From: Myxococcota bacterium
GTDB lineage: Bacteria > Myxococcota_A > Polyangia > Polyangiales > Houyiibacteriaceae
DNA length: 58,347 bases
Reading direction: 5' to 3'
NCBI GenBank assembly: GCA_028284955.1
Contig: JANQQS010000118.1
Coordinates: forward strand, 1-58,347
The translations under genes and the position numbers were made by a program. The notes below the pieces were generated by a model. It did not search any database. It was not told where the DNA came from and was given only the letters and a program-made list of their open reading frames with translations. Below, piece by piece: positions 32,679-34,910 of the stretch (the stretch's first letter is position 1; the number at the start of each line of letters is the position of its first letter).

Positions 32679-32689
32679 TTTAATTAGGG

Positions 32690-33425
32690 TCTGGCACCCA
32701 GACCCTCTCGTCGGGGTACGACCCCGCCGATTCACCCAAACTCCCCCGCCAGGAACCACGTGACATGGTTACGTGGGGTCGAACTGCCGGGGCCCCGCCG
32801 CTTCGCGGTGGGGCGGACGCGAAGCGGCCGGCGTCGGGAGGGGGGACCCGGTCGGGTCGTACCCGACTGGGGGGAGGGGCTGCGGCCAGCCCCTCCGGAG
32901 AAACGCAGTGCACCCAAACCCTCTCGTCGGGGTACGACCCCGCCGATTCACCCAAGCTCCCCCGCCAGGAAGCACGTAACCAGGTTTCGTTGTGCAGAAC
33001 TGCGGTAGCGGATCCGAGGTGTTGTCTTCGATCCGAGTCTTGTCCCACCGCGAAGCCCAACGTAACCGGGGCCCCGTCGCGCAGCGATGGGGCGGCCGCG
33101 CAAGCGGCCGGCGTCGGGAGGGGGGCCCCCGCGGCTGTTTTGTTTGAGGGTTTGGCACCCAAACCCTCTCGTCGGGGTACGACCCCGCCGATTCACCCAA
33201 GCTCCCCCGCCAGGAGGCACGTCACCTGGTTTCGTTGTGCAGAACTGCGGTAGCGGATTCGAGGTGTTGTCTTCGATCCGAGTCTTGTCCCACCGCTGAA
33301 GCCCAACGTAACCGGGGCCCCGTCGCGCAGCGATGGGGCGGCCGCGACAGCGGCCGGCGTCGGGAGGGGGGCCCCGCGGAATTGTATTCCGCGGGGGGAG
33401 GGGCTGCGGTCAGCCCCTCCAGAAA
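32690..33425. repeat. Array of GC-rich nested palindromic repeats within the atp locus
   Basis: Three modules recur. Module A (ACCCTCTCGTCGGGGTACGA and on to CACGT) begins at 32702, 32918 and 33163. Module B (GGGGCCCCG to CGGGAGGGGGG) begins at about 32789, 33068 and 33313. Module C (GGGGAGGGGCTGCGG with CAGCCCCTCC) ends at 32896 and 33420. Positions 32918-33129 and 33163-33375 are almost identical direct repeats of about 212 bases. Many self-complementary units are nested inside, for example CCGCGGAATTG with TATTCCGCGG. A 45-nt part matches the left edge of the window exactly in reverse orientation. All reading frames here translate the repeat and are not genes. It fills the space between atpG and the kinase gene. 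Confidence 0.92.
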
Positions 33426-33426
33426 C

Positions 33427-34638
33427 TTAGAACTGAGCGATGAGCATACCGCCGGCGATGGCGACGGCGATGCCCAGGCCGAAGCATAGGATGAGGGCGG
33501 TTTTGGAGAGCGGGGGGCGTTCGTTCTGAATCGCGATTTCTCGGGAGTCGCGCATCAATGGAGGTAGCTCGCCGCGAGCCGATTCGCTTTCTCGGAGCAG
33601 CGGCTCGACTTGGTGGGATGCTACCAGGGCGCGTGTGCTGCTTGGAGGAATGAGCGTGCTTGCTCGCCGTGTTCCCGTGATCATGAGCTCTTCGCAGCGG
33701 TCGTCGGAAACATGTGGGAGCAAGGCTTCGATGACCTCCATCATTGAAGCGAATCGGTCGGACGGTAGTTTTTCAAGTGTGCGGAGCACGATGTCGCGCA
33801 GCGCTTCGGGAATCGGCGTCCCGGAGGGGCTGGTGAGTGGTGGCACGGGTTCGTGCACGTGTGCAGAGAACACACGAATCGGCTGGCGATGTTCAAACGG
33901 CAGCCGTCCGCAGAGCATTCGGTACAGCAGGATGCCGAACGCATAGATATCCGTACGCGTGTCGACGGGCGCGCCTTGAATCTGCTCGGGCGCCATGTAG
34001 TTGGGCGAACCTAGGAACTGGCCCTTTTGAGTGACGCTCTCTTCGGACGAAAGGTTTTTGGCGAGACCAAAGTCGAGCACTTTCACGAGTTCGTCGGGGG
34101 TGCCCCGATCGGTCAGCACGATGTTGGCGGGTTTCAAGTCGCGGTGCACGATATTGAGCGCATGGGCCGCGTGAAGGGCTTGGGCGACCTGCAGCGCGAC
34201 GCGCGCAGCCACTCCAGCGTCGAGCGCGCCTTTGTGCGCGAGCACGTCGGCCAAGGTGGGGCCTTCGACCAGCTCCATGGCGATAAAGTAGAGCCCTCGA
34301 TCGGTTTTCCCGTGGTCGAAGACACGAACAATATTGCGATGACGCAATTCCGCGGCGATGGACACTTCGATTGAAAACCGAGCATGAAATTCTGCCTCGT
34401 CCCCAGCTGCAGGAATGCTGGGGTCAAGAATCTTGAGCGCTACATCAATGCCACGTTTGAGGTCGACTGCGTGATAGACCCGGCCCATGCCGCCTTTGGC
34501 GATCAGCCGAAGCACTGTGAATCGGCCGTTGAGCTCTCGGCCGACGAGCGGGTCGGGCCGGCTTTCGAGGCTCGTGTTTTGCTCAGAAACGATGTGCACG
34601 AGGGGTACGGCGTGGCCGCAACACCTTATGCGGCGCAC
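33427..34638 (-). CDS. Hanks-type Ser/Thr protein kinase with C-terminal membrane anchor
   Basis: Up to 403 residues. Kinase motifs in order: A-K-G-G-M-G-R-V-Y (47-55; Ala replaces the first Gly of the loop), catalytic Lys69 (VALK), HRDLKPAN (165-172), DFG (189-191) and SPNYMAPE (211-218). A Ser/Arg-rich linker follows and a single membrane helix near the end (379-401), so the kinase faces the cytoplasm on a C-terminal anchor with almost nothing outside. There is no sensor domain. It lies opposite to and inside the atp gene order. The start is uncertain: GTG 34638 or GTG 34599, neither with a good Shine-Dalgarno. Targets are unknown; neighbouring ATP synthase subunits are a speculative possibility. 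Confidence 0.9.
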   Translation of the reverse strand: MRRIRCCGHAVPLVHIVSEQNTSLESRPDPLVGRELNGRFTVLRLIAKGGMGRVYHAVDLKRGIDVALKILDPSIPAAGDEAEFHARFSIEVSIAAELRHRNIVRVFDHGKTDRGLYFIAMELVEGPTLADVLAHKGALDAGVAARVALQVAQALHAAHALNIVHRDLKPANIVLTDRGTPDELVKVLDFGLAKNLSSEESVTQKGQFLGSPNYMAPEQIQGAPVDTRTDIYAFGILLYRMLCGRLPFEHRQPIRVFSAHVHEPVPPLTSPSGTPIPEALRDIVLRTLEKLPSDRFASMMEVIEALLPHVSDDRCEELMITGTRRASTLIPPSSTRALVASHQVEPLLRESESARGELPPLMRDSREIAIQNERPPLSKTALILCFGLGIAVAIAGGMLIAQF

Positions 34639-34717
34639 CTATACAGTCTTCATGACTGGCTGCGCGGCGGCAAGCTTGACCGCCAAGGATTTGCCGCAGA
34701 GTGTCGTTCGCGCGGAG

Positions 34718-34751
34718 TTTTTTTGCGGTTTTTCAGCGTTTTTTGCGTTTT
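34718..34751. promoter_or_regulatory. Phased T-tracts (likely intrinsically curved DNA)
   Basis: Four T-runs (34718-34724, 34729-34733, 34739-34744, 34748-34751) have centres about 10, 10 and 8 bases apart, close to the helical repeat. Phased A/T-tracts bend DNA. The site sits in the 272-base divergent region between the kinase gene and atpD, a place where bending could affect both promoters. I cannot assign exact -35/-10 boxes. Confidence 0.6.
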
Positions 34752-34910
34752 GGGAGCCGTGCATGACGTTGACCCCCTAAGACCCACATGCTACGTGCCC
34801 GCGGCAATCGCTGGAGGCGACGTCTACGACGCGCATGCTCCGGCCCCGCAAGCACTTCAGCCCCGCAAATATTCCGGCTTTGTGGGCAAACAGGGCGGAT
34901 AGAGAGGACC

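Follow-up and report, generated by a model that had tools for sequence, protein, structure and literature searches.

It has long been asked why essential, stoichiometric complexes are kept in operons. For the ATP synthase, splits between the gamma and beta genes have been published for cyanobacteria, chlorobi, bacteroidetes, aquificae and Beggiatoa, and the passages of the same account on delta-proteobacteria name a c|b split, not a gamma|beta one (PMC4154653). The REP and BIME sequences of E. coli and other bacteria are high-copy extragenic palindromes with compensatory stem changes, sited downstream of genes, often between convergent genes and in some cases less than 15 nt from stop codons (PMC1525189, PMC3733652, PMC12306157); REP palindromes carry a GTAG or CGTC tag at one end (PMC3733652). 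Literature searches on Myxococcota atp operons, and on repeats at convergent genes in Myxococcota, returned nothing specific.

The locus described here lies in a 58,347-nucleotide stretch (hereafter the window) of a genome of the family Houyiibacteriaceae (Polyangiales). It shares with the published gamma|beta split loci the site of the break, which separates gamma from beta and sets the beta-epsilon pair apart from the other genes. Compared with the split loci presented in the relevant passages of PMC4154653, it is unlike them in two respects: a single family shows abutting genes, abutting genes with an internal promoter, a kinase in between, a divergent arrangement and genes megabases apart, and the break in the window is marked by an antisense kinase.

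Gene order at the atp locus

Genes were identified with Pfam (atpG, the kinase, atpD and atpC included), and the locus gave no Rfam match. The coding features are the following.

28346 to 32678, plus strand: atpF', atpF, atpH, atpA and atpG (subunits b', b, delta, alpha and gamma; Pfam)
31806 to 32678, plus strand: atpG (gamma; Pfam)
33427 to 34638, minus strand: Ser/Thr protein kinase of 403 aa with one transmembrane (TM) segment near the C terminus, without PEGA domain (Pfam and comparison)
34911 to 36347, plus strand: atpD (beta; Pfam)
36351 to 36764, plus strand: atpC (epsilon; Pfam)

The beta-epsilon block is thus not adjacent to gamma, the antisense gene lying in between, and this gene order is backed by synteny in relatives. 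The gap from the end of atpG (32678) to the start of atpD (34911) measures 2232 bp and holds a palindromic array of about 742 bp and the kinase on the minus strand, in agreement with the preliminary description, which had reported a separation of 2.2 kb with about 740 bases of palindromes and an opposite-strand kinase.

The reading that we favour, with a probability of about three quarters, is that the atp blocks are separately transcribed from matched promoters, with an old kinase insertion and then a recent array in the window lineage. We infer the following order of steps. AtpDC would first have gained its own promoter (TTGACC-N14-TGCTA), of a class common with the atpF' and atpZIBE operons, so that the gamma|beta linkage would no longer have been needed. 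In an ancestor shared by several Houyiibacteriaceae genera, the space between atpG and atpD would then have come to be occupied by a PEGA Ser/Thr kinase gene in antisense orientation, so that atpG and the kinase converge and the kinase and atpD diverge. In the window lineage only, dispersed REP-like repeats would finally have filled the convergent junction, with a kinase that now ends just after its TM segment; on the simplest reading, the array grew as the kinase lost its 3' part.

The gamma|beta break and the promoter candidates

The positions of atpD and atpG were compared in 144 Polyangiales genomes. The two genes abut, with gaps of 44 to 245 bp, in at least 8 of the 144 (G001, G011, G040, G041, G046, G052, G057 and G062), a lower bound since fragmented assemblies hide some linkages. 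They lie far apart in the one-contig genomes G043, G116, G122, G127, G132 and G018, the last of which belongs to Houyiibacteriaceae. One Houyiibacteriaceae genus (g10; L081, L082, L087, L088, L089 and L090) has atpDC divergent and upstream of atpF'FHAG, the spacer holding three genes, one of them bactofilin-like. In G033, which belongs to another family, atpG and atpD are separated by four antisense ORFs (L212, G033:C18, 3762-9292), one with a peptidoglycan-binding domain and three without Pfam match; none of them matches a kinase, so insertion at the atpG/atpD junction happened more than once. Based on gene order in these assemblies, the gamma|beta break is usual in Polyangiales. The window follows this rule in that atpDC stands apart, and it shows two extra features of different age: the kinase, which is old, and the REP-like array, which is young. 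Conservation of the window arrangement over the phylum was also looked at, and the arrangement is not conserved at that scale. The preliminary description had proposed that the hairpins of the array part atpDC from the other genes; this is not supported, as the linkage is broken in most Polyangiales genomes, where this array is absent, and five genomes have the two genes separated by the kinase without it.

A second atpD-like frame (about 51% identical, with one in-frame TGA) is present in both genomes of one genus (G034:C41:52992-54353 and G066:C457:8143-9501).

Two putative promoters of the same type precede the two halves of the operon.

28251 to 28275, plus strand: atpF'FHAG promoter candidate, TTGACG-N14-TGCTA (extended -10), 95 bp upstream of the ATG at 28346, conserved in 22/22 family loci
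34769 to 34793, plus strand: atpDC promoter candidate, TTGACC-N14-TGCTA (extended -10), 142 bp upstream of the atpD start codon, identified by conservation in the family

The second was found by comparing the kinase/atpD gaps of relatives, and reads as a -35 element and an extended -10 with 17-bp spacing. A sigma70 consensus scan found no promoter, as it demands a TATAAT-like hexamer. In the fetched loci, the 39.5 kb upstream of atpD and atpF' contain 53 hits of the pattern, and the other 1.53 Mb a single one. With A or C accepted at the fourth position, it is found at 20 of the 22 atpD loci and all 22 atpF' loci of the family, for a shuffled expectation of 0.03-0.04 loci. The two atpD exceptions are G001, where atpG and atpD abut without the motif, and G023, where the motif is present and the called start is too early; G011, with an atpG-atpD gap of 245 bp, has the motif. 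In the genome of the window the exact pattern occurs 9 times, against 10 for the reversed control, which leaves location and conservation, not count, to carry the argument. Six of the nine hits precede atpF', atpD, atpZ-atpI-atpB-atpE (on another contig), rplS, prs and a multi-S1-domain gene (rpsA-like); three others lie elsewhere. One of the nine (L294, G000:C153, 1111-1348) is followed after 19 bp by a 72-aa ORF that matches nothing in Pfam.

Given this conservation, atpDC most likely has its own promoter at 34769, and is probably transcribed separately owing to that promoter rather than to hairpins cutting a transcript. The independent expression of atpDC from atpF'FHAG suggested in the preliminary description is probably right, with the promoter candidate and not the array as its cause. 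That description had also supposed that stoichiometry would need another control, for which the common promoter type at both half-operons and at atpZIBE is a candidate answer: the shared class likely coordinates the atp blocks, and of the possible means of balancing the subunits, matched promoters would be the best candidate. Such an uncommon sequence, common to each atp block, would be a simple possible way to keep the parts in step.

The motif might instead be a general housekeeping sigma70 type without special atp coordination, for which the odds fall a little short of even. Hits before rplS, prs and the rpsA-like gene agree with this, whereas the rarity of the exact motif (9 copies), its occurrence at all three atp operons and its family-wide conservation at two of them speak against it. 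A housekeeping type would be compatible with separate transcription and would weaken the coordination claim only. A single bacterial family presents ATP synthase genes that are abutting, interrupted, inverted or dispersed, and the promoter that would permit this variety is readable in the sequence, so that a connection of promoter gain with operon break-up can be put to the test. A wider and more tentative proposal, which we hold at clearly less than even odds, is that Polyangiales record the break-up of an operon as a natural series: atpD would first have gained a further copy of the same rare promoter class, which made it possible for atpDC to be relocated repeatedly, subunit stoichiometry would be set by matched promoters rather than linkage, and the conserved antisense kinase would be a mark, and perhaps a regulator, of the break.

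The palindromic array at the convergent junction

The array starts 6 bp past the atpG stop codon and its other end touches the kinase stop codon. Its main elements are listed below.

32685 to 33426, no strand: array of dispersed palindromic repeat units at the convergent atpG/kinase junction (repeat comparison)
32686 to 32706, plus strand: hairpin 1 of the atpG transcript, 7 nt past the atpG stop codon (fold prediction)
32708 to 32730, plus strand: hairpin 2 of the atpG transcript (fold prediction)
32873 to 32896, no strand: inner copy of the 24-nt core palindrome GGAGGGGCTGCGGCCAGCCCCTCC (repeat comparison)
33397 to 33420, minus strand: core hairpin of the kinase transcript, 6 nt past the kinase stop codon (33427-33429; fold prediction)
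33372 to 33396, minus strand: second hairpin of the kinase transcript (fold prediction)

The array is made of a unit of about 142 nt present three times (spacing 216/245 bp, copies non-identical), with shared segments of 78, 28 and 31 nt and many inverted repeats. Its GC content is 0.66-0.69, against 0.57-0.62 in the surroundings, and the predicted RNA fold of 32660-33440 has an energy of -438 kcal/mol (z -9.4 against 20 shuffles). The repeat unit has 84 matches in the genome of the window; among the genomes of relatives searched, no full-length match was found, and partial matches were short and weak. The core hairpin, GGAGGGKYTG-N3/4-CARMCCCTCC, occurs in 168 copies genome-wide versus 0 for the reversed control pattern. 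Among the copies read, variable stem positions covary (GCTG/CAGC, TCTG/CAGA, TTTG/CAAA) with very few exceptions; since stem variants change together, it is the hairpin itself that is kept.

Genes around 38 arrays were called with a simple codon-usage caller. Gene 3' ends are faced by 50 array flanks (30 of them at 15 bp or less), versus 14 flanks facing gene 5' ends (none at less than 66 bp). Where both neighbours are known (26 arrays), 14 junctions are convergent, 10 tandem and 2 divergent, versus 7, 26 and 8 respectively for the 41 gene pairs of the window (14/26 versus 7/41 convergent; Fisher p 0.003).

High copy number, covarying stems and location downstream of genes make the repeat resemble REP/BIME sequences, from which it differs by its larger composite unit (about 245-275 nt), by a core GGAGGG..CCCTCC without GTAG tag, and by the lack of a linked RAYT-type transposase. 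CGTC precedes hairpin 2 in the three repeat copies inside the window (by reading), and GTAG was not seen. RAYTs are the transposases linked to GTAG REPs. A search for such an origin gave one Y1_Tnp match in the genome (30.6 bits), with no repeat copy around it; as no repeat-linked transposase was found, the family is named REP-like and not REPIN. The array is a recent local copy of this dispersed REP-like hairpin family.

A rival view, close to that of the preliminary description, makes the array a functional bidirectional terminator or attenuator, itself responsible for uncoupling atpDC from atpF'FHAG. Strong hairpins do begin close to both stop codons, 7 nt past that of atpG and 6 nt past that of the kinase on the opposite strand, and arrays favour convergent junctions, but no T-tract terminator (a GC-rich hairpin followed by a T tract) was found in 32679-33426; the array is preceded by T-rich and followed by A-rich sequence, opposite to what a bidirectional intrinsic terminator would show, and relatives without the array are uncoupled as well. 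A terminator role is therefore unlikely. Instead of an array, the junction of most relatives has one short hairpin that resembles a terminator. Where the kinase occupies this junction in relatives (genes called with a simple home-made caller), the atpG/kinase gap is 53-339 bp. Its hairpin is strong and short in G002, G008, G031 and G032, flanked by A and T tracts in the last two; a terminator consensus scan of the gaps accepted T-tailed hairpins in G032, G008 and, weakly, G002, and none in G031 or G004.

In the working model that follows from the favoured reading, atpF'FHAG and atpDC would be separate transcripts with matched promoters, and the array would give the atpG and kinase mRNAs hairpins less than 10 nt from the stop codon. 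Such hairpins would protect 3' ends or stall terminating ribosomes and would limit read-through. The array also suggests how hairpin repeats can occupy a convergent junction while the neighbour gene loses a sensor-like domain.

Other repeat copies of the same genome lie beside the atpZ-atpI-atpB-atpE operon (L291, G000:C53, 1-560 and 2600-2870), one of them between a class-III aminotransferase gene and atpZ, adjoining the atpZ promoter candidate. The start of the window (1-99) is inside a further copy, on the minus strand, consistent with the assembly breaking at repeats.

The antisense kinase

The kinase had been described as a membrane-anchored Ser/Thr type, and the sequence bears this out: the motifs GGMGRV, ALK, HRDLKPAN, DFG and APE are intact, and there is one strongly hydrophobic stretch (residues 381-401). 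The window copy is like membrane Ser/Thr PEGA kinases in having a Pkinase domain and a TM segment. In the counterparts of relatives, the TM segment is followed by a PEGA domain (found in two of them) and then a conserved NPY tail; the window copy, unlike these, stops just after the TM segment, and Pfam found no PEGA domain in it. A search for a PEGA remnant in the array gave noise-level matches only (best E 0.027).

The kinase occupies the atpG-atpD junction, at the same place and in the same orientation, in G002, G004, G008, G031 and G032, none of which has the array. In G007 it adjoins atpD, with atpG on another contig and well inside that contig. This makes six genomes from five genera of Houyiibacteriaceae. 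When the window kinase was searched against the family, whose genomes carry dozens of similar kinases, the top hits were the atp-locus kinases of the six other genomes. These form one clade (support 94), near which the window kinase stands on a long branch; it is divergent (about 49% in the kinase domain), and its placement within the clade is neither rejected (AU p 0.56) nor proven. The tree test did not separate this placement from two others, beside the C178/C422 pair and inside the C433 group. In full-length BLAST, the kinases of the relatives match best another kinase of the window's genome, similar in length to theirs. Orthology of the window kinase with the atp-locus kinases is likely, on account of its tree position near the clade and its identical position and orientation.

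The preliminary description had left the age of the insert to comparison with close relatives. Judged from phylogenetic spread, its two parts differ: the kinase insertion, common to five genera, is old, and the array, found in the window lineage only, is recent. Many Houyiibacteriaceae have no kinase at the atp locus, and a single gain followed by losses is not proven because the species-tree backbone is weakly supported.

Regulation of the ATP synthase by the kinase (through subunit phosphorylation or envelope-state sensing) would explain its conservation at the locus. In line with this, the kinase keeps one position and orientation across five genera, it has remained next to atpD in G007 after detachment from atpG, and its motifs are intact in the window copy. 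We nevertheless regard such a role as quite improbable, given the many family members whose locus lacks the kinase, the divergent window copy without PEGA, and the dozens of similar kinases per genome; co-location can be neutral.

That the array is an artefact of this metagenome-assembled genome is very improbable: the assembly has 223 contigs with the repeat often at contig ends, so that array copy number may be off, but the array is internal to one contig, with unique flanks and three non-identical copies, and abuts stop codons as copies do genome-wide.

Both genomes of genus g4 have a second, divergent kinase-like gene just downstream of atpC (L066, 2671-3474; L068, 8992-9891).
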